Under the pieces are notes generated by a model. It did no database searches. It saw nothing but the letters and a program-made list of their open reading frames with translations, and was not told the DNA's origin. From contig CANRIU010000012.1 in assembly GCA_947630755.1 (NCBI GenBank), forward strand, positions 1 through 50,719: a DNA stretch of 50,719 bases, in the 5' to 3' direction. Source of the stretch: an uncultured Oscillospiraceae bacterium. Lineage in GTDB: Bacteria; Bacillota; Clostridia; Oscillospirales; Oscillospiraceae. Positions 2,201 to 50,719 of the stretch are shown here, in pieces. The position numbers and the translations under genes are program-made. Each line of letters begins with the position of its first letter. The first letter of the stretch is position 1.

Positions 2201-5200
2201 TCAATACTCGTAAACTCCATCGTACACCAGCACGGCGTCGCCTGTGAGGGTGACGAGCTCATCGGAGTAGTTGACAGTCACGTCCCCGCCGGGGAGCTTC
2301 ACGGTGATGTCTCTCCCCTTGTGAAGGGCGCCCCGCTCGGTGGCGGCGATAACCGCGGCGCAGGCGGCGGTGCCGTTGGCCCGCGTCTCTCCCTCGTCCG
2401 GGGAGAAGACCCGGATGCGCAGTGTGTCGTCATTCACGACCTTCACAAACTCCACAAACGCCCCCTCGGGGAGGAGTCCGGAGTTCACCAGCGCGGAGCC
2501 CACGCTCTCAACGTCAAATCCGCCCAGATCCTCGGTAAATACCGTGCAGTGGGGCACGCCAAGGGTGCACAGCGTTATGCGGTACTCCCGCCCGTCCACG
2601 CTGACGGGCTCGTCCACCACCCGGGACTTGCCGATGAGGTTCACCTGCATCCTCCGGGCGTCAAGGAACGCCGTGCCCATGTGGACGCTGACGGTGCTCA
2701 CCCGCCCGTTGCGGGTATAGAGCTGGAGATAGCGGATGCCGGTGTCGGTCTGTATGGTCATGTGCTCGTGGCGGACGATGCCCTTGTCGTAGAGGTACTT
2801 GCCCACGCAGCGTATGGAGTTTGCCGCCATGCGCCCCTCGGTGCCGTCGGGGCTGAAAATGCGCATCTTGGCGTCGGCTCCGGCGGAGTTCTCTATGAGC
2901 ACCAGCGCCCCGCCGCCTATCCCGGTGACCCGGTCGCAGAGCGTCACGCTCAGGGACTCCGGGCTCGTTATCCGCCCGTCACGGTTGTCGAAGAAGATGT
3001 AGTCGCTGCCGCAGGTGTGCATTTTGGCGAAGCTCACCAGCTCCCGGGTCCTGCGCATATCGTTGAGGTTTACAAGCTCCGTGTTCTCGTTGGTGAAGCG
3101 GCTCGCCAGAGTGTCGGTGACGGCCTCCGCCGTGTCAAGGCTGGTGATGCATGGTATGCGCAGCCGCACCGCCCGGGCGTGCAGGTCAATGAAATCGCCC
3201 ATGGTGTCGTCATAGAGCGCCCCGGTGTAGACGATGAAGCTTATCGCGCCATCGTCCATCAGTGTATAGGCGTCGTGGACATGGTTTATCTCCTTCACCT
3301 CAAGCCCCAGGTTCCTGACTACGGCGGCGGTGTCCGGCGTGGCGTAAAGCTCCATGTGCAGGTCGTTGAGCTTCTTGGCAAGGCGCACCACATCGGGAAG
3401 GTCGTGGTTCTCGATGGAGAGGAGCACGCCGTTTTTCCCCGGCGTGAAGGCCCCGGAGAGGTTGTAGCCCGCGGCCCGAAGGCCCTTGAAAAGCGCCTCG
3501 GAGAAGGTGCGGCCCAGTCCCAGGACCTCGCCCGTGGACTTCATCTCCGGTCCCAGCATGGAGTTTGCGTCCGTTATCTTCTCAAAGGAGAACACCGGGA
3601 CCTTCACGGCGTAGTAGGGCGGCGTGTCGCAAAGGACCTGCTCATACCCCAGGCCCTTGAGCGTCGCGCCCATCATTACCCGGCTTGCCACGTCAACCAT
3701 GGGTATGCCCGTGACCTTTGAGAGGTAGGGCACGGTACGGGATGCCCGGGGGTTCACCTCAATGACATAGAGCTCCTTTTTGTAAATGAGATACTGGATA
3801 TTCACAAGTCCCCGGGTGCCAAGCTCCAGCGCAAGGCGCGTGGAGCACTCCACGACCCGCGCCATCATCTTGTCCGTCAGGTTGTAGGGGGGATATACGG
3901 CGATGGAGTCGCCGGAGTGGACGCCCGCCCGCTCGATGTGCTCCATTATGCCGGGCATGAGCACGTCCGTGCCGTCGGAAATGACGTCCACCTCCAGCTC
4001 GGTCCCCGGCATGTACTTGTCAACTAAAACGGAGTTGTCCTCCCTCTCGGTGCTCGCGAAAATAAGCGCCATGTAGTTTCTGACATCCTGCTCGTCGTGG
4101 GCGATGACCATATTCTGTCCGCCGATGACGTAGCTGGGGCGCAGCAGCACCGGGTAGCCCAGAGTCTCGGCAGCCTTAAGGGCCTCCTCAAGAGTGTGGG
4201 TGCCGAAGCCCTTGGGGCGCTTTATGCCAAGGGACTCCAGCAGCGCGTCAAACCGCTCCCGGTCCTCGGCAAGGTCGATGCCCTCGGCGCTGGTGCCGAG
4301 GATGCGTATTCCCTGTTTATCCAGATACTCCGTCAGCTTGATTGCCGTCTGACCGCCGAAGGCCACGACCACGCCGATGGGCTTCTCCACCTTGATGACG
4401 CCCATCACATCCTCGGGTGTCAGGGGCTCGAAGTACAGCCTGTCCGCCGTGTCGTAGTCGGTGGAAACTGTCTCCGGGTTATTGTTGATTATGACCACGT
4501 CGTAGCCCAGCTTCTTTAAGGTCACGGCGCAGTGGACGGAGCTGTAGTCAAACTCGATGCCCTGCCCTATCCTTATGGGTCCGGAGCCGATGACTATGAC
4601 GCTCATGCGCCTTCTCGGCTGCGGGCGGGAGTCGCACTTGTCGTTGTAGGCGCTGTAGTAGTAGGGCGTCTCCGCCTCAAACTCCGCGGCGCAGGTGTCG
4701 ACCATCTTGTACACGGGGTCCAGGTGCGGTATCTCCCCCTGCCCGGAGATGGCCCGGAGGGCGGCGTCGGTGTAGCCGTAGCGCTTGCCCTTCAAATATG
4801 TCTCCCGATCGATGCCCTTTTCGGCGATGAGCCTCTCATAATCTACCAGATTCTGGAGCTTTGAGATGAACCAGCGGTCGATCATTGTGACCTCGTGGAT
4901 GTGCTCGTGGCTCACCCCGGCCTTCAGCGCCTCAAAGACGGTGAAGATCCGAAGGTCGTCCATCGCCGCAAGCCTCTCCTCAAGGCTCTTTCCCGGCTCC
5001 GGGGCGCGGTTTAATGTGCTCTGCCCGATCTCGGCGCCGCGGACCGCCTTCATAAGGGCGGACTCAAAATTCGTCCCGATGGACATGACCTCGCCCGTTG
5101 CCTTCATCTGCGTGCCAAGGCGCCTTCCGGCGCCGTGGAACTTGTCGAAGGGCCACTTGGGGAACTTCACCACGCAGTAGTCCACCGTGGGCTCAAAGCA

Positions 5201-6232
5201 GGCGTAGGTCTTGCCTGTGATGTCGTTTCGTATCTCGTCTAATGTGTACCCCAGGGCGATCTTCACCGCCACCTTGGCTATGGGGTAGCCCGTGGCCTTG
5301 GAGGCGAGTGCGGAGGACCGGGACACCCGGGGGTTTACCTCGATAACGGCGTACTCGAAGCTGTCGGGGTTTAAGGCGAACTGGCAGTTGCAGCCGCCCT
5401 CGATGCCCAGCTCCGTTATAATGTCCAGCGCCGCGCTTCTCAGCATCTGGTACTCCTTGTCCATCAGCGTCAGCGCCGGCGCGACAACAATGGAGTCCCC
5501 GGTGTGTATTCCCACTGGGTCCAGATTCTCCATGGAGCAGACGGTGATAACATTCCCCGCGCTGTCCCTGATTACCTCAAACTCTATCTCCTTCCAGCCG
5601 AAGATGTACCGCTCGATGAGCACCTGGTGAATCGGCGATGTCTCCAGTCCCACGAATGCCACACGCCGCAGCTCCTCGGCGCTGTATGCCACGCCGCCTC
5701 CGCCGCCGCCAAGGGTGAAGGCGGGGCGGACTATCACCGGGTAGCCGATGCGGTCCGCGATGGCGACGCAGTTGTCCACGTCGTTTGCTATGTCCGAGGG
5801 TATGCAGGGCTGACCTATCTTCTCCATGGTCTCCTTGAAGAGCTCCCTGTCCTCGGCCTTGTCTATGGCGTCGGCATTAGTCCCGATGAGGCGCACGCCG
5901 TGCTTTGCCAGAAATCCCTCGTGTGTCAGCTGCATGGCTATGGTGAGGCCCGTCTGCCCGCCAAGGCCGGCGAGGAGACAGTCGGGCTTCTCCTTGAGGA
6001 TTATCCTCTTCACCGTCTCGGCATTGAGGGGCTCGAGGTACACGCTGTCCGCCATGTCCCCGTCGGTCATGACCGTGGCGGGGTTGGAGTTTACAAGGAT
6101 GGACTTCACGCCCTCCTGCTTCAAAATGCGGCAGGCCTGGGTCCCGGCGTAGTCAAACTCCGCCGCCTGACCGATAACTATCGGGCCGGAGCCTATTACC
6201 ATGACCTTTTTTATCGACTTATCTAAAGGCAT
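2201..6232 (-). CDS. carB: Carbamoyl-phosphate synthase large subunit fused to a DapF-like domain
   Basis: This enzyme makes carbamoyl phosphate from bicarbonate, ATP and ammonia delivered by CarA, for pyrimidine and arginine synthesis. The first ~1060 of 1343 residues are a standard CarB: a carboxyphosphate ATP-grasp half starting with VMVIGSGPIVIGQAAEFDY, an oligomerisation region, a second ATP-grasp half starting VIVIGSGPIRIGQGIEFDY near residue 545, and an MGS-like allosteric domain at about 945-1060. CarB normally ends there, near 1070. Here about 280 more residues follow in frame and match diaminopimelate epimerase along their whole length, but without the catalytic residues (separate entry). 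Its ATG overlaps the carA stop by one base (TAATG), so the subunits are translationally coupled. The transcript ends at the hairpin at 2152-2182. The CarB call is certain; the effect of the extra domain is unknown. Confidence 0.97.
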   Translation of the reverse strand: MPLDKSIKKVMVIGSGPIVIGQAAEFDYAGTQACRILKQEGVKSILVNSNPATVMTDGDMADSVYLEPLNAETVKRIILKEKPDCLLAGLGGQTGLTIAMQLTHEGFLAKHGVRLIGTNADAIDKAEDRELFKETMEKIGQPCIPSDIANDVDNCVAIADRIGYPVIVRPAFTLGGGGGGVAYSAEELRRVAFVGLETSPIHQVLIERYIFGWKEIEFEVIRDSAGNVITVCSMENLDPVGIHTGDSIVVAPALTLMDKEYQMLRSAALDIITELGIEGGCNCQFALNPDSFEYAVIEVNPRVSRSSALASKATGYPIAKVAVKIALGYTLDEIRNDITGKTYACFEPTVDYCVVKFPKWPFDKFHGAGRRLGTQMKATGEVMSIGTNFESALMKAVRGAEIGQSTLNRAPEPGKSLEERLAAMDDLRIFTVFEALKAGVSHEHIHEVTMIDRWFISKLQNLVDYERLIAEKGIDRETYLKGKRYGYTDAALRAISGQGEIPHLDPVYKMVDTCAAEFEAETPYYYSAYNDKCDSRPQPRRRMSVIVIGSGPIRIGQGIEFDYSSVHCAVTLKKLGYDVVIINNNPETVSTDYDTADRLYFEPLTPEDVMGVIKVEKPIGVVVAFGGQTAIKLTEYLDKQGIRILGTSAEGIDLAEDRERFDALLESLGIKRPKGFGTHTLEEALKAAETLGYPVLLRPSYVIGGQNMVIAHDEQDVRNYMALIFASTEREDNSVLVDKYMPGTELEVDVISDGTDVLMPGIMEHIERAGVHSGDSIAVYPPYNLTDKMMARVVECSTRLALELGTRGLVNIQYLIYKKELYVIEVNPRASRTVPYLSKVTGIPMVDVASRVMMGATLKGLGYEQVLCDTPPYYAVKVPVFSFEKITDANSMLGPEMKSTGEVLGLGRTFSEALFKGLRAAGYNLSGAFTPGKNGVLLSIENHDLPDVVRLAKKLNDLHMELYATPDTAAVVRNLGLEVKEINHVHDAYTLMDDGAISFIVYTGALYDDTMGDFIDLHARAVRLRIPCITSLDTAEAVTDTLASRFTNENTELVNLNDMRRTRELVSFAKMHTCGSDYIFFDNRDGRITSPESLSVTLCDRVTGIGGGALVLIENSAGADAKMRIFSPDGTEGRMAANSIRCVGKYLYDKGIVRHEHMTIQTDTGIRYLQLYTRNGRVSTVSVHMGTAFLDARRMQVNLIGKSRVVDEPVSVDGREYRITLCTLGVPHCTVFTEDLGGFDVESVGSALVNSGLLPEGAFVEFVKVVNDDTLRIRVFSPDEGETRANGTAACAAVIAATERGALHKGRDITVKLPGGDVTVNYSDELVTLTGDAVLVYDGVYEY
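2204..3040 (-). other. Degenerate diaminopimelate epimerase (DapF-fold) domain at the CarB C-terminus
   Basis: CarB residues ~1065-1343 can be aligned by eye to DapF from its first strand (AKMHTCGSDYIFFDNRDG) to its end (LVYDGVYEY). DapF uses two cysteines, in MCGNGxRC and in GETLACGTGACA. Here these read MAANSIRC, with Ala at residue 1136 (codon 2825-2827), and GETRANGTAACA, with Asn at residue 1286 (codon 2375-2377). The substrate-contacting motifs are altered too: GNDY is GSDY, NADGSE is SPDGTE, GNPH is GVPH, and ERGxGET is SPDEGET. The fold-defining glycines and hydrophobic strands remain, and the frame is open. This suggests a kept but non-epimerase domain, perhaps structural or regulatory. 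Confidence 0.88.
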
Positions 6233-7299: not shown

Positions 7300-7370
7300 A
7301 AACTCCTCCATGCAGTCGTATTCATCAAGCATCGCAGATTTCGCGTCCGCAGACGCGAAGAAATCCAAAT

Positions 7371-7489
7371 CATTTTTGCGGCGGCCTGCGCGTCGCAAAA
7401 ATGCCCTTTCAGGTTTGCGGAGTGTGCGAGCGGAGCGAGTGCGCGCAGCAAACCGGCAAATTCTCAAAGAATGTTGTCACGACAACATT
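7371..7489 (+). repeat. Multi-hairpin intergenic element, copy 1
   Basis: Read on the plus strand, the element begins with a 33-nt hairpin: arms 7371-7380 and 7394-7403 (CATTTTTGCG and complement) around a 13-nt loop GCGGCCTGCGCGT. Then come the linker CCCTTTCA, an outer helix GGTTTGC/GCAAACC (7412-7418 with 7448-7454) enclosing AGTGT and GCGCGCA, the linker GGCAAATTCTC, and a hairpin AATGTTGT-CACG-ACAACATT at 7470-7489 followed by T residues. The last hairpin overlaps the 3-prime end of dapL on the other strand. Copies 2 and 3 share the loop and linkers but have different, still-paired stems. A further 8-bp hairpin (TTCGCGTC with loop CGCA) sits just outside at 7340-7359. Confidence 0.8.
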
Positions 7490-8694
7490 TTTTTGATTCG
7501 CTCCATGGCCTCGCAGGTGTTCTCGTATGTCCCGAAGGCCGTGAGCCGCACATACCCCTCGCCTGACGGTCCGAAGCCCGCTCCCGGGGTGGTGACGACA
7601 CACGCCTCATGGAGGAGCCTGTCGAAAAACTCCCAGCTGCCCATCCCGTCGGGGGTCCCGCACCAGATATAGGGGGCGTTGACACCGCCGTAGACGGCAA
7701 GTCCCGCTTTTGAGAGGGCGCCGCGTATGATCTGGGCGTTGTGGAGGTAGTACCTCACGTTCTCCATGGACTGCTCCCAGCCCTCCGGGGAGAGCGCCGC
7801 CTCGGCGGCCCGCTGGATGACATAGGGCACGCCGTTGAACTTCGTGCCCATGCGCCGATTCCACAGATCCCGGAGGCTCACGCCGCCCCGGACCAATGCC
7901 TTCGGTATCACCGTGTAGGCGCAGCGGTTTCCCGTAAATCCGGAGCTTTTTGAGAAGGACCTGAACTCAATGGCGCAGGTCTTTGCCCCCTCCACCTCAA
8001 AGATGGAGTGGGGTATGCCGGGCTCGGTAATGAACGCCTCGTAGGCGGAGTCAAAGAGTATGACGCTCTGGTGCTCGTTTGCGTAGTCCACCCAGACCTT
8101 GAGCTGCTGGGCCGTCGCGGCGGAGCCCGTGGGGTTATTGGGTGAGCAGATGTATATCATGTCGGGCACCCTCTCCGGCAGCGCCGGGAAGAAGCCGTTT
8201 TCCGCGGTGCAGGGCAGGTAGACAAGGTTTGTCCACCTCTCCCCGTCGTAGTCCCCGGCCCGGCCCGCCATGGCGTTGGTGTCCACATACACCGGGTACA
8301 CCGGGTCGCAGACCGCGACAACATTGTCAGGCGAGAATATGTCGCCTATATTGCCGCAGTCGGACTTTGCCCCGTCGGAGACGAAGATCTCGTCGTCGGC
8401 AATGTCCACGCCCAGCTTTTTGTATGCACCCTGAATGGCGAAGCGCAGGAAGTCGTATGCCCCGCAGGTCTCCTCGCAGTAGCCCCGGAAGGTCTCCCGG
8501 TTTCCCATTTCCCGGCTTGCCTTCTCCATGGCCTCCACCACCGCGGGAGCCAGCGGCAGCGTCACGTCGCCAATGCCCATGCGGATTATCGGCATGGGGG
8601 GATTTGTTGCCTGAAATGCCCTGGTCCTGCGCCCGATCTCCGGGAATAGATACCCCCCGGGGAGCTTCAGAAAATTATCGTTTATCCTGACCAA
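7477..8694 (-). CDS. dapL: LL-diaminopimelate aminotransferase
   Basis: This PLP enzyme converts tetrahydrodipicolinate directly to LL-diaminopimelate, a shortcut in lysine and peptidoglycan precursor synthesis. The 405-residue protein starts [19 protein letters not shown], the family's typical N-terminus. It carries [17 protein letters not shown], the strand with [10 protein letters not shown], and the PLP-lysine region [17 protein letters not shown]. The start is TTG at 8692-8694 with GGAAAGGGG about 8 nt upstream. The pathway still needs a DapF epimerase to make meso-diaminopimelate. The only DapF-like sequence here is the degenerate domain on carB, two genes downstream. No promoter is obvious in the 80 bp upstream; a TTGACA at 8755-8760 (minus) has no matching -10. 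Confidence 0.96.
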
Positions 8695-8774: not shown

Positions 8775-11213
8775 TCAATCGTCCAGAAGGTGTGTATAAT
8801 CATACCTCTCGATCTCAAACAGGTCCGTATTCCCCATATCCGGATTCCATATAATGAATCCCAGTACCGCGGTGAGCTCCCCGTCCGCGCTCCGGCAGGC
8901 ATCCTTCGGCTCCAGGTCAATGGGCCTGATGGAGAAATCGTCGCGGATCTTATACCTCTCCAACACGGAGGATATGCCGTAGGCCGATGTCTCCGGAGTG
9001 TCGGTATAATCATCCTCCTCGCTTCCGTACCAGTGGTTGTAGTCGTAAGCGTTGTCTATAATATTCTCCCCGTCATAGGAGCACAGCCATATATCCCTCT
9101 CGCTGTGGTTCACTCTATGCCAAAACTCCACCAGGAAGTAAGTCTCGCCCTCATATTCATACACAAAGCCGCTGACCTCACCGGCGTTGCCTATCTCGGA
9201 AAGGCGGAGCGCGACGACGTCGCTGTCCCAGCTTGTGGTGCCGAAGCTCTTTTGCGCGGAGCGGACCACCTCGTCGTCCTTATACTCATAGATGTCGAGG
9301 TAGAGCCCGATGGCAAAATCATCGGGGAGAAGCTTTACCCTGAATACGCAGAGCTCCTCCTGCCCGTCCTTGTCCACATCGCCGTAGTATGCGCTGTAAA
9401 TGCCCTCGACGTAGAGAGGCGTCTCCACGTCATACATGCCGAATCTCGTTCTCACCGGGCCCGTGGGTGTGTTGTACTTTGGAATCAGCACGTTATTAAG
9501 ATGCTCCTCCAGCTTGTCGTGGACATTATCGCCCAGGGTGAACGTGACGGTGGTGTCGCCCTCGACGATGACCTGCCCGCCGATGGTGTTATCTTTTGCG
9601 TCTCTTATCTCCACCTCGTACTCGCCCGGCGCCGTGATGAGCCTGTAGACCCGCTCGCCATTCTCGTTTGATGTGGGCCTCGCCTGGCGGATAAGCCCCA
9701 GAAGGTCGTCTCCCACCCCGGTGGCGTACACCTGCACATCCAGATCGGGCAGGAAATTCCCCGCGCTGCTCATGACGATTATGTCGAGGTTCGCAGCGCG
9801 TAAATCTATTGTCGTGCCTGCCACGCCGCGAGTGAACTCAAGCTCATCGGTGTCGATGATCACGGACTTTATGAGCTCGAAATTATAGGATATGTCGATC
9901 TGATACATATCGCCCTTTTGATCGCTGTCCCGGGGAATGAAGAAGCTGCCCTCGCTGACCTCCCCGTTGTCCAGCCTCTGGTATGGGGAGGTGGACCCGT
10001 CGCGATCGATCTTAAGGCACTGAATCGACACGTCCTCCATGTCCACCGACCCGTCGCCGGATGTCAGCAGCACATCTATGCCGGTAGGCTCCCTGAGCCG
10101 GAAGAGCCTTGAGGGGTCCCGGGGCCACTCGACGAAGTACCCGTATCCGGCGTTGAGCATCCAATTAAAGCTCCCCTGGACATCCTCTACCGCCTGTCCC
10201 AGAGCAGACTCAATGTCCGCATACGCGCCGTATTCGTCGCACTGGGTGAGATACTCCGCCGTGCGGCTCATGACGTCGGTGCCGTACAATATATTCATAA
10301 TGTCGCTTGTGCCAACGTAGGAATCAAAGCCCTTGTTTATGAAGGTCTCCGCCATTACCCCATTGTCGGCGCCGCTCTCGCAGGCCGAGGTGAAGAACAG
10401 TCCCCCGTGGACGTCGCTCATGTACTTGTCAATAAAGTGGTAATTAAAGGCAAATTTCCTGCCGTTGTCACAGACATGAACAAGGGCCTCTCCGGTTTTG
10501 GAGTCCTGCTTCATGTCCTCCTCATATTTCTCGCGCTTTTTCTTTGTCACCCTCTCATTTATGCACAGGCAGAATATATCCTCACCCTGGCGGTTGGTGT
10601 ACATCCCGCCGTGGCCTCTCCAGAATATGGCCCGGACGTTCTCTTCATCCAGTGAGCCGAAAAACTCCTTCAGCTCCTCGATGGTCATTCCCCTGTCGTA
10701 GGTTTTGGTGCTCACGCCGTCAAGGGCGTCGGCTATGGTCTCCCCGGGGTCCCTGTACCCGGCCGGGTAGGGCTCGGACATCAGCGAGAAGAATCCCATC
10801 ACTGCCACACTGAACTCATCCCCGCCGGAGTAGAAGTCCCGTATCGGAGGAAGGTAGACCGTGGTGGTCCCGTCGTTATTGAAAAATGACACGGAGTGCC
10901 CCGCCTCGCAGTAGGCGGCGCCCTCTATCTCCCCGTCCTCCTCCAGCTTCAGGGCGTAGTCATACACCGCCAGGGCGGCGTCCTCCACCTCATCCATGTC
11001 CGGCTCCAGATACCCGTCCTCGTCCAGATAGTCCTCCAGCACCTGGGCGATCCCTTCCTCGATGAGCTCGTAGGACTCGAGGTCCTCCGTGTCAGCATCG
11101 TCGTTCTCCCCGGACTTATCTCTGTCCCCGGCGTCGCAGGCGCCGAGGCACAAAACGAGGGCGAGCAAAAGCGCGGCAAACATGGATCGGGCAGCAGATG
11201 GCGGTTTTCTCAT
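8775..11213 (-). CDS. Lipoprotein with caspase/CHAT-like peptidase core (paralog B)
   Basis: This 812-residue protein has a lipoprotein signal peptide ending LCLGAC, with the lipidated Cys at residue 26, then an acidic spacer. Residues ~100-345 resemble clan CD (caspase/CHAT-type) peptidases. A hydrophobic strand leads to a His-Gly pair (VRAIFWRGHGGMY, His201) and a later strand leads to a Cys (GGLFFTSACESG, Cys278), followed by a G-F-x-x-Y-V-G-T-S segment as in CHAT domains. Residues ~370-560 look like beta-sandwich domains; one resembles carboxypeptidase regulatory repeats. The C-terminal part has DVDKDGQEEL, a Ca-binding-type loop. It is a full-length paralog of the gene immediately upstream, with its own consensus promoter. 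The lipoprotein call is firm. Peptidase activity is inferred from two motifs, and the substrate is unknown. Confidence 0.75.
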   Translation of the reverse strand: MRKPPSAARSMFAALLLALVLCLGACDAGDRDKSGENDDADTEDLESYELIEEGIAQVLEDYLDEDGYLEPDMDEVEDAALAVYDYALKLEEDGEIEGAAYCEAGHSVSFFNNDGTTTVYLPPIRDFYSGGDEFSVAVMGFFSLMSEPYPAGYRDPGETIADALDGVSTKTYDRGMTIEELKEFFGSLDEENVRAIFWRGHGGMYTNRQGEDIFCLCINERVTKKKREKYEEDMKQDSKTGEALVHVCDNGRKFAFNYHFIDKYMSDVHGGLFFTSACESGADNGVMAETFINKGFDSYVGTSDIMNILYGTDVMSRTAEYLTQCDEYGAYADIESALGQAVEDVQGSFNWMLNAGYGYFVEWPRDPSRLFRLREPTGIDVLLTSGDGSVDMEDVSIQCLKIDRDGSTSPYQRLDNGEVSEGSFFIPRDSDQKGDMYQIDISYNFELIKSVIIDTDELEFTRGVAGTTIDLRAANLDIIVMSSAGNFLPDLDVQVYATGVGDDLLGLIRQARPTSNENGERVYRLITAPGEYEVEIRDAKDNTIGGQVIVEGDTTVTFTLGDNVHDKLEEHLNNVLIPKYNTPTGPVRTRFGMYDVETPLYVEGIYSAYYGDVDKDGQEELCVFRVKLLPDDFAIGLYLDIYEYKDDEVVRSAQKSFGTTSWDSDVVALRLSEIGNAGEVSGFVYEYEGETYFLVEFWHRVNHSERDIWLCSYDGENIIDNAYDYNHWYGSEEDDYTDTPETSAYGISSVLERYKIRDDFSIRPIDLEPKDACRSADGELTAVLGFIIWNPDMGNTDLFEIERYDYTHLLDD

Positions 11214-11352: not shown

Positions 11353-13827
11353 TCAGCCGTCTGTAATCATGAAATTTTCCAGATGGTATGTATAATCATA
11401 CCTGTCAATGCTGAATAATCCTATATTATCCGGGTCCCGGTTCCATAAAACAAACCCAAACATCGGATAGAGCGGCCCTTCGTCGCCGTAAAAGGTGTAC
11501 GCCGGCTCCACATCAATGGGCTTTATGGAGTAATCATCGTAGGCCTGGTACCTCTCCAGCATGGAGGACAGCCCGTAGGCAGAGATCCCCGGGGTATTTG
11601 TCTCTCCGTTTTCTCCGCTGTCATACCAGCAGTTGTAGTCGAACGTGTCGTCAACAAATTTCTTCCCGTCATAGGAGCACAGCCAGATCTCCCTCTCGTT
11701 GTGGTCCGTTCTCATCCAGCGCTCCAGCATGAAGTATGTTTTGCCCTCATATTTATATATAAAGGAGCTCAGCTCAACGGCATTGTAGATCTTCGACAGG
11801 CGCACCGCGACGACGTCGCTGTCCCCGCTCATACTGCCGAAGCTCTTCTCCGCGGCGAGGACCACCTCGCCGTTCCTGTACTCAAAAATGTCAACATAGA
11901 CCCCGATGGCGAACTCCTCGGGAATATATTTCGTTCTGAAGGCGCAAAGCTCCTCCTGTCCGTCGCCGTCTACGTCACCGTAGTATACGCTGTAAGTGCC
12001 CCCGGTGCGGGGTGTGCCCCAAATGCTGCTGTCATAGAGATCTATGTCCTCGAGCCCCGGCCGTGTGGGCGTGGGGTACTCACTCACCAGCACCCGTAAA
12101 AGATACTCATGCAGCTTTTCGTGGACATCTACCCCCAGTGGGAATGTAACGGTGGTGTCGCCCTCGACGACTACCTCTCCTTCTGTGGAGCCATATGTAT
12201 CATCCGTTACCTCCACATAGTACTCGCCCGGCGTCACAAGCAGCCTGTAGACTCTCTCTCCATCTTCATTCGTGGTGAGCTCCGCCCGGCGCAAAAGCCC
12301 CAGAAGGTCGTTTTTCGCGTCGGTGGCGACGACCTCCACATCGGCATCCGGCAGAAAATCCCCCGCCCCGTCGGTGACGATTATGTCGAGGTACCTGACG
12401 CTCATATCTATTGTCGTGCTTGCCGCGCCGCTTCTGAAATCAAGCTCCTCCGGGTCGATGGTTACGGACATTATGAGCTCAGACTTATAGTAAATGTTGA
12501 CCTCATACATCACGCCTTTTCCGGTGTCATCGCGGGGAATGAAGAAGCCCTCCTCGCTGACCTCCCCGTTGTCCAGCCTCTCATAAGGGAAGGTGGACCC
12601 GTCGGGGTTAAGCTTTAGGCACTGCACCGAAACTTCACCAGGTTCTACCGACCCGTCGCTGGACTTAAGCTTCACCTCTATGCCCGCGGGCACCCTGAAC
12701 CGGAAGGGTTTTGAATCGTCCCTGTTCATCAGGACGAAGTTCCCGCCGCCGTCATAATAATTGAGCTTCTGGTTAATGCTGCCATTGAAATCTTCTACCG
12801 CCTGCCCCAGGGCAGAATTAATATCGATATACGCGCCGTATTCGTCCTGCCGGGTAAGATACTCCACCGTGCGGCTCATGACGTCGCCGGCATACAATAT
12901 TTTTATAACGTCGCTTGTGCCGACGTAGGAGTCAAAGCCCTTGTTAAAAAAGGAATTTGCCATTATTCCCCCGTCAGAGAAGCTTTCGCAGGTCGAGGCG
13001 AAGAACAGGCCCCCGCTCACGTTGCACATATACTTGTCAATGAAGTAGTGGGTGAAGGCGAATTTCCTGCCGTCGTCGCAGACCTCCACCAGCTTCTCGC
13101 TGGACCAGTCCTCGCTGCCCAGGTCACCACTTTTTTTAAATTTATCGAGCTTTTTTTCCGTCACCTTCTCATTTATGCAAAAGCAGAATATATCTTCGCC
13201 CTTGCAGTTTCTGTACATGCCGCCGTGCCCTCTCCAGAAGATGGCCCGGACGTTCTCTTCATCCAGGGAGCCGAAAAACTCCTTAAGCTCATCGATCGTC
13301 TTGTCATTGCTGTAGGTACTGACAATCACGTTGTCCATGGCGTCGAGTATGGTATCCTCCGGTTCCCTGTACGAGGGGGATTTGAGTTTACTTTCAAGGC
13401 GTGATAAAGTGAAAAAGTCCATCAAAGCCACGCTGAACTCCCCCGCACCGGAGCAGAAGTCCCGTATCGGCGGAAGGTAGACCGTGGTGGTCCCGTCGTT
13501 ATTGAAAAACGACACGGAGTGCCCCGCCTCGCAGTATGCGGCGCCCTCTATCGTCCCGGCCTCCTCCAGCTTCAGGGCGTAGTCGTACACCGCCAGGGCG
13601 GCCTCCTCCACCACGTCCGTGTCCGGCTCCAGATACCCGTCCTCGTCCAGGTAGTCCTCCAGCACCTGGTCAACTCCGTCATTGATGAGCTCATGGGAGT
13701 CGAGGTCATCCATGTCGTCCTCTTTGGACTCCTCCCTTTCCCCGGCGCCGCAGGCGCCAAGGCAAAAAACGAGGGTGAGCAACAGCACGGCAAACATGAA
13801 ACGGGTAACGGACAGCAGTCTCCTCAT
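11353..13827 (-). CDS. Lipoprotein with caspase/CHAT-like peptidase core (paralog A)
   Basis: This 824-residue protein is co-linear with its downstream neighbour from signal peptide to C-terminus. The signal peptide ends FCLGAC (Cys26). The putative catalytic pair is kept: VRAIFWRGHGGMY (His201) and GGLFFASTCES (Cys280). Stretches such as AAYCEAGHSVSFFNNDG and LKEFFGSLDEENVRAIFW are identical in both proteins, while the segments after the histidine and in the C-terminal half have diverged. The C-terminal region again holds a DVDGDGQEEL loop. Conservation of the dyad in both copies argues for a working active site. The start ATG follows GGAAGGAGAT. It sits behind its own perfect consensus promoter. 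Alternatives are another clan CD family (C11 or C25) or a non-enzymatic derivative. Confidence 0.75.
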   Translation of the reverse strand: MRRLLSVTRFMFAVLLLTLVFCLGACGAGEREESKEDDMDDLDSHELINDGVDQVLEDYLDEDGYLEPDTDVVEEAALAVYDYALKLEEAGTIEGAAYCEAGHSVSFFNNDGTTTVYLPPIRDFCSGAGEFSVALMDFFTLSRLESKLKSPSYREPEDTILDAMDNVIVSTYSNDKTIDELKEFFGSLDEENVRAIFWRGHGGMYRNCKGEDIFCFCINEKVTEKKLDKFKKSGDLGSEDWSSEKLVEVCDDGRKFAFTHYFIDKYMCNVSGGLFFASTCESFSDGGIMANSFFNKGFDSYVGTSDVIKILYAGDVMSRTVEYLTRQDEYGAYIDINSALGQAVEDFNGSINQKLNYYDGGGNFVLMNRDDSKPFRFRVPAGIEVKLKSSDGSVEPGEVSVQCLKLNPDGSTFPYERLDNGEVSEEGFFIPRDDTGKGVMYEVNIYYKSELIMSVTIDPEELDFRSGAASTTIDMSVRYLDIIVTDGAGDFLPDADVEVVATDAKNDLLGLLRRAELTTNEDGERVYRLLVTPGEYYVEVTDDTYGSTEGEVVVEGDTTVTFPLGVDVHEKLHEYLLRVLVSEYPTPTRPGLEDIDLYDSSIWGTPRTGGTYSVYYGDVDGDGQEELCAFRTKYIPEEFAIGVYVDIFEYRNGEVVLAAEKSFGSMSGDSDVVAVRLSKIYNAVELSSFIYKYEGKTYFMLERWMRTDHNEREIWLCSYDGKKFVDDTFDYNCWYDSGENGETNTPGISAYGLSSMLERYQAYDDYSIKPIDVEPAYTFYGDEGPLYPMFGFVLWNRDPDNIGLFSIDRYDYTYHLENFMITDG

Positions 13828-16245: not shown

Positions 16246-16276
16246 CAGGCGAGTTCCGGCTTTCGCCGGAGTAAAA

Positions 16277-16304
16277 AATACCCGTGCCCTGAGGCACGGG
16301 TATT
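16277..16304 (-). terminator. Terminator-like hairpin, copy 1 of an identical pair
   Basis: A perfect 12-bp stem AATACCCGTGCC with loop CTGA. On the minus strand it is followed by a run of T residues (complement of the A run at 16273-16278), so it would best stop transcription coming leftward from the VanW gene. An identical 28-bp hairpin stands at 16587-16614. A small TCCGGC/GCCGGA hairpin lies just after the ArsC-like gene (16254-16270). Confidence 0.8.
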
Positions 16305-16309
16305 TCAAG

Positions 16310-16501
16310 CCGTCGACAAAGGCTTTGCCTTTGCCGACGGAAGGAATTTGCCGGTCCCCTACGCGCACGGCCCAGAGGGCCGCACACATCTCCGCGCTAA
16401 GAGCCGCCCTACGGGCGGTTGCGCTCCGAAATGGCGCCTGCGGGCGCACATCCGGGGACCTGAAAGGGGCAAAATCCGACGCACATGTCGCCGGATTTTG
16501 C
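16310..16501 (-). repeat. Multi-hairpin intergenic element, copy 3 (reversed and enlarged)
   Basis: Read on the minus strand, the first hairpin (arms 16492-16501 and 16469-16478, GCAAAATCCG and complement) has the loop GCGACATGTGCGT, close to copies 1 and 2. It is followed by CCCTTTCA as in copy 1, an outer helix GGTCCCC/GGGGACC (16454-16460 with 16353-16359), the linker GGCAAATTCC, and a hairpin CCGTCGGCAAAGGC paired with 16310-16323 (one mismatch). The outer helix encloses extra small hairpins not in the other copies (CCGCCC/GGGCGG at 16404-16418, CGGCCC/GGGCCG at 16368-16382, GCGCC/GGCGC at 16434-16447). With the two flanking identical terminators this accounts for most of the 408-bp gap. 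Confidence 0.78.
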
Positions 16502-16586
16502 ATTGAATTTTTTTCGCGCTGTGACCGAAGGGAATCCCCTTGCGGAACGGGCGCTGATTTTAAGCAAAGCTTTGTTAACAGTCTAA

Positions 16587-16618
16587 AATACCCGTGCCCT
16601 GAGGCACGGGTATTTTTT
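16587..16618 (+). terminator. Intrinsic terminator, copy 2 of an identical pair
   Basis: The same 12-bp stem and CTGA loop as at 16277-16304, here followed by TTTT at 16615-16618 on the plus strand. It would stop transcription from the RNase J operon before it runs into the convergent VanW gene. Confidence 0.85.
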
Positions 16619-16653: not shown

Positions 16654-18618
16654 TCAGCCGTCGCCGCCGCTGGGGACCTCGTCCGGGTCGCCGCCGCCCT
16701 CGTCACCTATGCCGCCGTCTCCCGGGTCAGGCCCGTAGTCCCCCGGCCCGGTCCCGTCCTCCGGCGTGTCGGGGGTGTCCGGAGTGTCAGGGTCATCCGG
16801 TGTGTCCGGCGTATCGGGTGTGTCGGGATTATCCGGCGTATCGGGAGTGTCAGGGGTATCAGGGGTATCAGGGGTATCAGGGGTATCAGGCGTGTCAGGG
16901 GTATCAGGCGTGTCCGGAGTATCCGGAGTATCGGGTGTATCCGGCTCATCCGGGTTGTCGGGATCATCCGGGTCGTCGGGGTCGTCCGGGTCCGTGGGTC
17001 CGACGGGCTCATCGGGGACCTCCGGCCCCTTGAGGATCACCCTGTCCTGGGCCTTGTAGGTGTCCTTGGAGATGAGGGTCCTGCTCAAAAGGTTCCCGTC
17101 CCCGTCGTAGACCAGCTTATACGCCTCGGACTTGTAGCCCACATGGCCCGCGGTCTTTACCTTCGTCTCACCCGGGGCGAGGGTCTCGTCGATCTCCTCG
17201 ACCTCCTCGTACTGGATGGTCTCGATGGTCTTGGACTCCAGCTCCACATAGTTGTCGTTTTCCTTCGTGCCCCAGATCTCCACAAACAGCGTCTTGTTCT
17301 CCACCCAGCAGACAAGCTTTATGGGGTAATTCCGGTTATTCACGAATTTGAAGTGGGGCGAGGGCCAGCTCACCGTGGCGTCCAGCCCCAGCGGCAGGTA
17401 GGAGACGCTGAAGGAGTGGTTCTGGCGCTTTGTTATCTCCAGGTCCGCCTTGAGCGTGCAGAAATATATTGTGGAGCTCACCTGGCATATGCCGCCGCCC
17501 ACCTCGTTTACGGTCTGCCCGCCGGAGTAGGCGCCCGCGGGCTTGTAGCCCTTGGCCTCGGTGCGCTGTCCCACCACCTCGTTAAAGGAGAACTCCTCCC
17601 CGGGGTTGAGCACAAAGCCGTTCACGGCCTGGGCCGCAAGGGTGACGTTTGTTATGCGGTTTGAGTTGCTGGAGCTTAAGGATGTGCTCTTCTCCGCCAG
17701 CTTGTCCTTGAATAGGAGGCTCTCAATATCGTCCCCGGATATGCTGGGCTTTGTGATGATGAGCTCCACCATTACCGTCTCTCCGGGCTCCGCCTCGTCA
17801 TAGAGGCGCTTAAGCTCCTCCACGTCAAAGCTCACGCCGTCAGAGCCCGCGGTGAAGGTCTCCGTCGCCGGGTCATACACCGCGTCCACGGGCTCGGTGT
17901 GGACCTGCTGGAAAATGGCGTCAAAATTCGGCTCCAGCCCTCCCGGTCCGGCGTTGTTCTTCTCGGAGAACTCCTCCGTCTGCCCGGATGTGCCGGAGAG
18001 CAGCGTGTCCCGGATATACTCAAACACGGCCTCCTCGTCCACGGAGTAGCCGGAGTCGCCCTTTGTCACGAAAAGCTGTGTCTTCGTCAGCTCATAGCTT
18101 GAGTCCTTCGCCCCGTGCTCCGCCCTCTCGGCGGCGTCGGCGACTATCGCCCTGACGCCGGACTCGTTAAAGACGCTCTCGGTGTACACGTCGTGGGGGG
18201 TTTTCATGCATTTGATGTAGGTGATGAGGTTCTCAAAGAAGCTCCCATCCCTGCCCCAGGCGTAGGCCGTGTCCACCGCTGTGTTAACCGACGCCACAAG
18301 TCCCGCCTCGTCGCTGGAGACGGTTATGGACACCGTGTCCGTGAGCTTCACCGTCGCCGTCACCCCGGAGGGCACGCCGAGGGACGGGGAGTTTAACAGC
18401 GTGCTGTGCGCCTCGCTGTAGGTCATGCCCCCGATGTCGATCCCGGCGACCTGGATATTCGGAAATATCGTGTCCTTCGCCGCCACATACGCGCCCATGC
18501 CCATCACCGCCGCGAAAGCGATGCAGAGCACCACCGCGCAGACGATAAGCGCCGTCCGGAGGGTGTTGTTTCTCCTCCTTCTCCTTCTTCTCTTTTGTAC
18601 TCTTTTTCCCTGTGCCAT
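16654..18618 (-). CDS. VanW family surface protein with G5-like domain and Pro-Asp-Thr tail
   Basis: I start this at the ATG at 18616-18618 (GAGGG upstream), giving 654 residues; a TTG 15 nt earlier is possible. A basic stretch (KRRRRRRRNN) precedes a membrane helix at ~20-45, so it is anchored with its bulk outside. Two peptidoglycan-binding-type segments span ~55-320. The VanW domain follows (~325-450) with LNPGEEFSFNEVVG and GGGICQVSSTIY. A G5-like domain (~455-535) comes next. The last ~110 residues are a low-complexity tail of Pro-Asp-Thr/Asp triplets, typical of wall-spanning linkers, with no LPxTG sorting motif. VanW proteins are linked to the cell envelope in Gram-positives, but their biochemical role is not settled. 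The gene stands alone between a promoter at 18674-18701 and terminators. Confidence 0.9.
   Translation of the reverse strand: MAQGKRVQKRRRRRRRNNTLRTALIVCAVVLCIAFAAVMGMGAYVAAKDTIFPNIQVAGIDIGGMTYSEAHSTLLNSPSLGVPSGVTATVKLTDTVSITVSSDEAGLVASVNTAVDTAYAWGRDGSFFENLITYIKCMKTPHDVYTESVFNESGVRAIVADAAERAEHGAKDSSYELTKTQLFVTKGDSGYSVDEEAVFEYIRDTLLSGTSGQTEEFSEKNNAGPGGLEPNFDAIFQQVHTEPVDAVYDPATETFTAGSDGVSFDVEELKRLYDEAEPGETVMVELIITKPSISGDDIESLLFKDKLAEKSTSLSSSNSNRITNVTLAAQAVNGFVLNPGEEFSFNEVVGQRTEAKGYKPAGAYSGGQTVNEVGGGICQVSSTIYFCTLKADLEITKRQNHSFSVSYLPLGLDATVSWPSPHFKFVNNRNYPIKLVCWVENKTLFVEIWGTKENDNYVELESKTIETIQYEEVEEIDETLAPGETKVKTAGHVGYKSEAYKLVYDGDGNLLSRTLISKDTYKAQDRVILKGPEVPDEPVGPTDPDDPDDPDDPDNPDEPDTPDTPDTPDTPDTPDTPDTPDTPDTPDTPDTPDTPDNPDTPDTPDTPDDPDTPDTPDTPEDGTGPGDYGPDPGDGGIGDEGGGDPDEVPSGGDG
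16762..16995 (-). repeat. In-frame 9-bp repeats encoding a Pro-Asp-Thr tail
   Basis: About 25 imperfect 9-bp units encode PDT, PDD, PDN or PDE triplets in the C-terminal tail of the VanW protein. Neighbouring units differ mainly at third codon positions, but five adjacent units at 16853-16890 are nearly identical, so recent slippage is likely and the tail length may vary between strains. Confidence 0.9.
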
Positions 18619-23500: not shown

Positions 23501-23535
23501 AGTCTCTCCTCCCATAATCCATTTAAATTTAAAAT

Positions 23536-23665
23536 GATTTTCGCGGCGGCATGTACGTCGCGAAAATCACCTTTTGTCGCCCAAGTGTCCAGTCCGCAGA
23601 CTGGTCGCGCAGGGCGACAAAAGGGAAATTTTCTCTGAATTTCGCAAAATTCAGAAAAATTTCCC
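23536..23665 (+). repeat. Multi-hairpin intergenic element, copy 2
   Basis: Plus-strand order: a hairpin with arms GATTTTCGCG (23536-23545) and complement (23559-23568) around the loop GCGGCATGTACGT; a perfect 13-bp helix CCTTTTGTCGCCC (23570-23582 with 23612-23624) enclosing AAGTGT, a CCAGTC-CGCA-GACTGG hairpin (23589-23604) and TCGCGCA; then a long hairpin 23623-23665 built from GGGAAATTT and TGAATTT arms. The loop, the AGTGT and CGCGCA segments and the AAATT linker match copies 1 and 3 although the stems differ. Confidence 0.85.
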
Positions 23666-23668
23666 GCA

Positions 23669-23791
23669 CGTTCTCTTACGGGGAAAGGCTTTAGCCTTTT
23701 CCCGTGGGTCGTTCTCTTACGGGGAAAGGCTTTAGCCTTTTCCCGCAGGTCGTTCTCTTACGGGGAAAGGCTTTAGCCTTTTCCCGTAGGT
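23669..23791. repeat. Three tandem 41-bp hairpin repeats
   Basis: Three near-identical 41-bp units begin at 23669, 23710 and 23751, each starting CGTTCTCTTACGGGGAAAGG. Each contains an 11-bp hairpin (CGGGGAAAGGC with loop TTTA and GCCTTTTCCCG). The units differ only at one or two bases at the junction. A fourth copy breaks off after CGTTC at 23792. Confidence 0.95.
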
Positions 23792-23802
23792 CGTTCCCCC
23801 TG

Positions 23803-23831
23803 GCATCGAAAGCCCGTTGGGCTTTCGATGC
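23803..23831 (-). terminator. 13-bp hairpin after relA
   Basis: A perfect 13-bp stem (GCATCGAAAGCCC, 23803-23815 with 23819-23831) with a 3-nt loop lies 3 nt after the relA stop. There is no T run, so it may stabilise the mRNA end or end transcription only weakly. Confidence 0.55.
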
Positions 23832-50108: not shown

Positions 50109-50719
50109 TGACATACGTTCAGCCTTCATCCCACCCCGCGCGGGGCGGAGTAGAACTACAGCCTGTCGTCCACAAACAATGGAGCGGCAGCGGGGATGGC
50201 GCTGAAGTCAATTCGACAAAGCGCCGCGCGGAATTTGGGGCGACAAATCCCCCGACAACCGCCGCGGCAGCCGTCCCGCCGTGAAAAGCGTAAACCCCGG
50301 TTTGCGAATACGGTTCTTTAGTCTCGCCACCCCGCGCGGTAACTCACTTTTCGGTCAACAAGCGCAGCCGCGCGGGGCTGAGTAGAACTACAACTTTCGT
50401 CCACAACCGAAGGAGCGGCAGCGGGGATGGTACTGAAGTCAATTCGACAAAGCACCGCGCAGAATTCGGGGCAAAAAAGCCCCCGATAACCGCCGCGAAA
50501 GCCGTCCCGCCGTAAAAAGCGTAAACCCCGGTTTGCGAATACGGCTCTTTAGTCTCGCCCCCCTCGCGGTAACTCACTTTTCGGTCAACAAGCGCAGCCG
50601 CGCGGGGTAGAGTAGAACCACAGACTACCGTTACCAAACAACGGAGCGGCAGCGGGGATGGTGCTGAAGTCAATTCGACAAAGCACCGCGCGGGAATCGG
50701 AGAGGCAAAGCCCCCGACA
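50109..50719. repeat. Tandem repeats of about 231 bp, cut by the window end
   Basis: At least three copies run head to tail: the first is recognisable from ~50130 (its left edge, ~50109-50129, has diverged), the second at 50341-50570 and the third from 50571 to the window end. The segment TAGAACTA/TAGAACCA recurs at 50151, 50383 and 50613, so the periods are 232 and 230 bp. Each unit contains GGAGCGGCAGCGGGGATGG, then CTGAAGTCAATTCGACAAAG, and a GTAAACCCCGGTTTGCG palindrome. The copies differ by substitutions and small indels that break reading frames, so a repeat protein is unlikely. Confidence 0.9.

Follow-up and report, generated by a model that had tools for sequence, protein, structure and literature searches.

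Hairpin-rich repeats in gut Oscillospiraceae as probable MITEs of IS1182-family transposases

Hairpin-targeting transposons and short interspersed repeats

IS1272 and TnSha1, which are Staphylococcus elements of the IS1182 family, use hairpins without sequence consensus as targets (PMC5678879, PMC4923244), often transcription terminators (PMC4923244), and remove all or part of the target stem-loop, no target duplication being generated (PMC5678879, PMC4923244). Duplication of a whole stem-loop appears in PMC5678879 as pathway b of the model in its Fig. 13, beside the replacement pathway proposed for IS1272, and the same paper reports that Siguier et al. had noted palindrome targets for some IS1182 members. 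A 2025 paper states that the action of IS1182 transposases may or may not involve duplication or deletion of the target (PMC12056078), and PMC3281130 and PMC3196728 list IS1182 elements with 4-bp repeats. The word MITE is absent from the text of PMC5678879, as is IS1182 from that of PMC10969869. Among the literature matches listed, which included few subscription papers, no description of IS1182 MITEs or of the repeat considered here was found.

The locus in question, at positions 7371-7489, lies in a 50,719-nucleotide stretch of DNA from an uncultured Oscillospiraceae bacterium, the whole of which was analysed (the window). From its sequence relationships, it very likely belongs to a family of MITEs, non-autonomous elements for whose movement in trans DDE transposases of the IS1182 family are probably responsible, since IS1182 elements in the genus have the same type of ends and, in six of the eight with both ends found, identical flanking palindromes. 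Points shared with IS1272 and TnSha1 are the IS1182-family transposase, the hairpin target and the placing of some insertions directly 3′ of genes (PMC5678879, PMC4923244); however, all or part of the target stem-loop is deleted there, whereas here the hairpin is duplicated. With bacterial MITEs, as characterized in PMC10969869, the elements have in common that they are short, non-coding, high in copy number, mostly intergenic and bounded by terminal inverted repeats, together with stem-loop folding and movement in trans by an IS; the QMITE2 example there has direct repeats of 7-9 bp as against mostly ~19-39 bp here. SPRITE, RUP and BOX of Streptococcus pneumoniae are likewise small interspersed stem-loop repeats, SPRITE being terminator-like (PMC10969869; see also PMC3049150), but they are from another host group and are likened by description, not by sequence. 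Where IS1182 hairpin targeting has previously meant destruction of the target, the same transposase family here seems to duplicate it, and the present cases would be natural examples of a pathway that PMC5678879 had only as a model drawing.

Window copies and the extent of the family

The first-pass annotation of the window described three spacers sharing one architecture, and all three are found as described, at 7371-7489 (plus strand), 23533-23668 (plus strand) and ~16353-16501 (minus strand), here copies 1, 2 and 3. Each has hairpin A, whose arms vary while the loop is conserved, then a CCCTTT-type linker and a helix B that encloses an inner hairpin. The features are as follows.

7339-7359, plus strand: copy 1 hairpin E (TTTCGCGTCCGCAGACGCGAA), exact position, upstream of the start given in the first-pass annotation
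7371-7403, plus strand: copy 1 hairpin A, 13 bp with 7-nt loop GCCTGCG; 59.7 bits with the covariance model
7404-7411, plus strand: copy 1 linker CCCTTTCA; many own-genome copies have a similar linker
7412-7454, plus strand: copy 1 helix B, arms 7412-7418 GGTTTGC and 7448-7454 GCAAACC, with a variable hairpin inside
7470-7489, no strand: the 'last hairpin' of copy 1 in the first-pass annotation, AATGTTGTCACGACAACATT, overlapping the 3′ end of the aminotransferase gene at 7477-8694 (minus strand)
16275-16305, no strand: copy 3, left copy of a duplicated 31-bp terminator-like palindrome AAAATACCCGTGCCCTGAGGCACGGGTATTT
16306-16584, minus strand: copy 3 complete element, 279 bp
16306-16322, no strand: terminal inverted repeat of copy 3 on the element's 3′ side, plus-strand sequence CAAGCCGTCGACAAAGG
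16353-16460, minus strand: copy 3 helix B, arms 16454-16460 and 16353-16359 (GGTCCCC/GGGGACC), inner region expanded
16469-16501, minus strand: copy 3 hairpin A, loop ACATGTG; 57.3 bits with the covariance model
16585-16615, no strand: copy 3 right palindrome copy, identical to the left; terminator-like in a terminator scan
23536-23568, plus strand: copy 2 hairpin A, loop GCATGTA; 62.2 bits with the covariance model
23570-23624, plus strand: copy 2 helix B, arms 23570-23582 and 23612-23624
23625-23663, plus strand: copy 2 hairpin C, conserved apex GAATTTCGCAAAATTC
23669-23831, plus strand: copy 2, three tandem linker-plus-hairpin units at 41 bp spacing, then a hairpin-D-like palindrome (23803-23831)

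Some details of the earlier description need revision. The 33-nt extent of hairpin A stands, but three inner pairs, of which one is usually G.T, fall within what had been taken as loop, so that in place of 10-bp arms and a 13-nt loop it has 13 pairs and a loop of 7 nt. Copy 1 was called intergenic, which holds except for 7470-7489, where its 'last hairpin' shares the stop and last codons of the aminotransferase gene. For copy 3 the core was correctly placed, but the full extent of 16306-16584, the terminal inverted repeats and the 31-bp flanking duplication were missed. It is the only window member with recognised ends (the other end, at 16584, starts AGACTGTTAACAAAG on the minus strand) and a flanking duplication. 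For copy 1 neither element ends nor a flanking repeat were recognised, and it is probably an old family member whose ends have been lost. Hairpins similar to its hairpin E precede hairpin A, by eye, in several copies from other genera. In the 23669-23831 region of copy 2 neither a terminal inverted repeat nor a flanking duplication was recognised; the tandem hairpin units at 23669-23796, with linker CGTTCTC, look like the outcome of local amplification of an end hairpin.

Eight copies, the three window copies among them, were used to build a covariance model covering hairpin A and the linker, so that the 57-62 bits of these three (E 4e-11 to 5e-10 within the window) are scores of training-set members. 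The first-pass annotation had proposed such a search of this genome and relatives, and had made its case depend on further copies in the genome and on covariation holding as more copies were aligned. Many further copies were found: with 150 of 1086 first-look candidates scored, the own genome (2.19 Mb) has 70 hairpin-A matches at E<0.01 and 86 at E<=1. At E<=0.001 in a set of 40 genomes, 22 were matched, namely the own genome, 20 of the 24 others of the genus and one of 15 from other families of the order, with 2-123 hairpin-A matches per matched same-genus genome. An order-level draw with 16 candidates scored per genome gave matches at E<=1e-4 in 35 of 394 genomes, from 15 of 168 genera and under four family labels. 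A strict hairpin pattern was matched by at least 117 stretches of named genomes, the titles among the matches listed being mostly Oscillospiraceae or Intestinimonas gut MAGs, with Dysosmobacter, Oscillibacter, Clostridia, Clostridiales and Eubacteriales as further labels; there were no matches to the strict hairpin-A pattern in viral contigs. An ORF-based count of gene context was set aside, 29 of the 70 copies being inside ORF calls taken as spurious.

End to end, the elements are ~110-310 bp, multi-copy and without a transposase inside. An element can nevertheless carry cargo, as an 867-bp member at L177 (6868-7734) holds a 130-aa GNAT acetyltransferase ORF within helix B; a stretch with the same length pattern is present on contig 26 of G005.

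Ends, flanking duplications and IS1182 elements

Inverted repeats of the CAGNNTGTC(A/G)A.. type form the ends of many copies. When the upstream flank of each copy was aligned with its downstream flank, matches at a repeat score >=36 were present in 47 of 197 copies (pattern-selected loci included), as against 1 of 587 control pairings in which the two flanks came from different copies, the own genome contributing 19 of its 61 copies; the other 150, window copies 1 and 2 among them, have no flank repeat at that score. The repeat is generally a hairpin: a hairpin score >=8 is reached by 37 of the 47 repeats (again with pattern-selected loci) versus 3.3% of 703 random windows, and a score >=6 by 44 versus 23% of random windows. 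Repeats are mostly ~19-39 bp, following the target hairpin, and the duplication tends to span hairpin foot to hairpin foot: hairpin and repeat start no more than 3 nt apart in 33 of the 47, and their lengths agree to within 4 nt in 29. The Spearman correlation of hairpin with repeat length, 0.76 for 44 repeats, is partly built in because the hairpin search window grows with the repeat; it is 0.65 for all 47, where length-matched random windows give 0.23, and 0.59 with a fixed search window. Many of the repeated hairpins can be read by eye as intrinsic terminators, the terminator scan being that of copy 3.

There are exceptions among the 47. The repeat of L079 is 86-88 bp and not a hairpin, L163 and L173 are without a good palindrome, and the flank repeats of L039, L090 and L173 may take in the element's own sequence, while at C16:30144, C4:64212 and L123 the two flanking loops look, by eye, mutually inverted. 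A strict-end search yielded four non-IS elements, two of which show a difference of over 2 nt between hairpin and repeat lengths. Of 18 copies from other genera of the order, 6 have duplicated hairpin flanks (20 were fetched, and L248 and L254, which contig ends cut and which had been mis-registered in the cross-genus comparison, were excluded); the flank repeats of L255 and L265 are not hairpins. A separate observation concerns L034, at G000:C14:19832, where in the downstream flank the sequence after the duplicated hairpin resembles, on the opposite strand, the T-box motif GGTGGTACCGCGG, the insertion possibly being into a T-box terminator.

A search of four relatives with the end sequences gave short elements and, in G015, an opposed pair ~1.5 kb apart. 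This pair, L211 (1496 bp), encloses a 473-aa transposase that has DDE domains in Pfam and scores 385 bits with the IS1182-family model NF033551 (cut-off 270), and the IS1182 transposase of the own genome scores 437 bits with it. The own-genome IS1182 element, L226, comes after a gene read by eye as GMP synthase and lies between two copies of AAGCCCTTGCCGTCGGCAAGGGCTT; its ends, CAGACTGTAGACAAAC and CAGTCTGTCGACAAAC, are comparable to those of copy 3. On visual comparison the IS ends of the own genome are similar to subfamily 2, of which copy 3 is a member, and those of the G015 IS to subfamily 1. Both ends were found for eight IS1182 elements, six of them bounded CAG..CTG and abutting, with no gap, identical palindromes of 21, 23, 23, 25, 31 and 31 bp. 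A hairpin thus stands on both sides in six of the eight, not the stem-loop replacement of the IS1272 type. At L229 and L230, also with both ends found, the sequences differ between the two sides; these are IS1182-like pieces of 751 and 989 bp with ends beside two different palindromes, possibly through recombination between copies. With the patterns used, no end/flank pair was found at L225, L227/L233/L291, L228, L231, L237, L298, L299, L300, L301, L306, L307 or L308, several such IS1182 loci being fragments. As for what ties the short elements to these IS, inverted repeats of the autonomous-IS kind are present in many copies, though window copies 1 and 2 have no recognised ends, and target duplications like those of IS1182 elements are found (47 of 197 copies; six of eight IS).

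IS1182 homologues (E<=1e-10) are present in 14 of 25 genus genomes, the own genome included, and none was found in copy-rich G005, G006, G018 and G019, nor in G030 outside the genus, so that some copy-rich assemblies are without a visible parent. Draft assemblies may lose IS genes, and IS fragments are seen at G012 contig ends. Conversely, G004 has one homologue and no hairpin-A matches. No likeness of the hairpin core to IS interiors was seen by eye.

ISfinder repeat lengths for the IS1182 family are 0-60 bp. IS1202 / ISNCY elements also have long target duplications, of a size similar to the present repeats, and the IS1634/IS1549 type has long variable ones. Neither is the source favored: the ISNCY_2 model had no match above cut-off in the 40 genomes, the transposase scores 25.7 bits with the IS1634 model (cut-off 100), and it passes a cut-off only with IS1182.

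Sites with and without a member can be compared downstream of an RNase J and an ArsC-like gene in 15 genus genomes. Hairpin A is there in three (G000, G011, G002); in G002 the left hairpin is apparently missing and the element end touches the stop codon, a possible exception to the presence of a hairpin on both sides. G010 has, by eye, a lone end-type hairpin, and in the remaining 11 there is no downstream hairpin-A match within 569-1500 bases (a match in G012 is on the other side of the gene). Most member-free genomes have by eye one terminator-like hairpin, which supports insertion without deciding the matter because the terminator itself differs between species.

The first-pass annotation had offered two suggestions, selection on an RNA structure or a palindromic mobile element. 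The latter is the better one, and is well supported by the abundance of copies, by their terminal inverted repeats and duplicated targets, by filled and empty orthologous sites, and by autonomous elements of the IS1182 family whose ends and targets are of the same kind. For such an element, the transposase may recognise the terminator as a hairpin or cruciform and join the element ends to the hairpin feet on the two strands, with the consequence that gap repair would leave a full copy of the hairpin on either side. The adjacent gene would then retain its terminator, and the element would occupy a quiet pocket between two terminators, which would explain the tolerance of so many copies in a 2.2 Mb genome. 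Terminator-keeping insertion is a neat route to harmlessness, and an element that is harmless in this way can become abundant. Between the inverted repeats there is a chain of hairpins E, A, B, C and D (not all in each copy), with loops and linkers conserved and stems compensating.

The covarying core and rival explanations

RNA folding gives z-scores of -2.0 for copy 1 (4 of 200 shuffles fold equally well), -11.7 for copy 2 and -5.4 for copy 3. Covariation in hairpin A was counted over 13 pairs in an alignment of 73 rows (66 distinct) fitted to the covariance model, with kinship ignored and with pattern-selected loci left out because the pattern fixes the stem. Paired cells make up 98.5% versus 77.5% on shuffling, and there are 141 double-change cells versus 32 shuffled (0 of 500 as high), slid controls reaching at most 55. 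The claim that conserved loops are accompanied by compensatory stem changes is thereby borne out, and covariation has persisted with more copies, beyond both shuffles and slid controls. A count of the pairs in which any double change occurs is non-discriminating, at 10 versus 8.6 shuffled (45 of 500 as high). For hairpin C, 18 distinct own-genome arm pairs, with a mean 5′-arm identity of 60%, have 94% of cells paired versus 70% on arm shuffling (maximum of 200 shuffles 80%); this is cleaner than another count of 134 rows, in which each hairpin is counted twice as both strands matched. The occurrence of loops like CCTG, CACG and CAGG led to the idea of a CATG kissing loop being abandoned. A single-strand fold of the hairpin core is probably under selection, as RNA or DNA, with the proviso that template-switch correction of palindromes could account for part of the covariation pattern.

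That correction, carried further, is the alternative to be taken most seriously: arms of quasi-palindromes would be kept complementary by template switching at replication and not by selection. We judge this to be a minority prospect of some substance. It fits with stems that are near-perfect though their arms differ, as in hairpin C (94% paired at 60% 5′-arm identity), but loops and linkers are more conserved than arms even though they are outside the protection of such correction, and positions 4 and 10 of the loop mostly carry G..A or A..G. These last points are not decisive, because part of the loop is set by the regex and the subfamilies are related by descent. A structured non-coding RNA, either a cis element or an sRNA, that has turned repetitive and whose transposon-like ends are incidental, is less likely again. 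Strong compensatory changes alongside conserved loops and linkers would be expected of it, one inner pair of hairpin A is mostly G.T, A.T or G.C (113, 22 and 7 of 149 regex-selected hairpins, pattern-selected loci included, a selection that favours pairing), and the core is recognisable across other families of the order, copies from other genera keeping a similar loop and several of them also, by eye, a similar linker and upstream motif. However, an RNA leaves the terminal inverted repeats, the hairpin duplications and the IS1182-like ends to coincidence, and copies with duplicated flanks sit between two terminator-like hairpins. Nor is there a clear strand preference in support, cells with G.T versus A.C numbering 10 versus 7 apart from the G.T pair, which is not clearly unequal; the window has no match to Rfam 15 at gathering score, and five loci gave four weak matches, all far below gathering (best 28.8 bits against a gathering score of 43).

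Two further readings are highly improbable. One is that the flanking hairpins were pre-existing, elements sitting where two terminators already stood and no target duplication having occurred. Gene ends commonly have terminators and some flanking pairs are diverged, but the flanking hairpin varies between copies while matching within a copy (47/197 versus 1/587), flanking copies are identical at six of the eight IS1182 elements with both ends, and at the RNase J site a single terminator-like hairpin is seen by eye in most member-free genomes. The other is that REP/BIME-type palindromes are being moved by RAYT (Y1 HUH) transposases. The elements are palindromic and high in copy number, and Y1_Tnp proteins are present in the own genome (two matches) and in 18 of the 40 genomes; against this, no Y1_Tnp match (E<=0.001) was found in G005, G006, G011, G015 and G017, which have 112, 59, 82, 51 and 51 hairpin-A matches. 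Terminal inverted repeats and target duplications, as in many of the present elements, are unlike REP/IS200-type movement.

Within the preferred reading of MITEs moved by IS1182 transposases, a bolder proposal can be put forward tentatively. The hairpin core may be a functional structured module, RNA or single-stranded DNA, borne on at least two IS1182 end types through several families of gut Oscillospiraceae relatives, sometimes with a gene, and hidden between duplicated terminators, the target hairpin and not the transposase setting the duplication length; in its entirety this is rather doubtful. The covarying core does raise a testable question, namely whether a transposon body must fold, and in which strand or molecule. 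There is also a caution for RNA discovery, since screening such genomes for covariation will pick out MITEs as candidate RNAs.

Other features of the window are also pertinent to its annotation. A 1343-aa ORF at 2201-6232 (minus strand) has carbamoyl-phosphate synthase large-chain domains and a C-terminal diaminopimelate epimerase domain, and is either a CarB-DapF-like fusion or the result of a frameshift or an overlooked stop. At 8775-11213 and 11353-13827 two neighbouring ORFs on the minus strand (812 and 824 aa) lie over diverged direct repeats that are 67-89% identical in the blocks listed. Nine-base repeats (TCCGGNGTR-like) are present at 16742-16993 near one end of a VanW/G5-domain gene, and tandem repeats with a period of 230-231 bp occupy 50136-50719, reaching the contig end.
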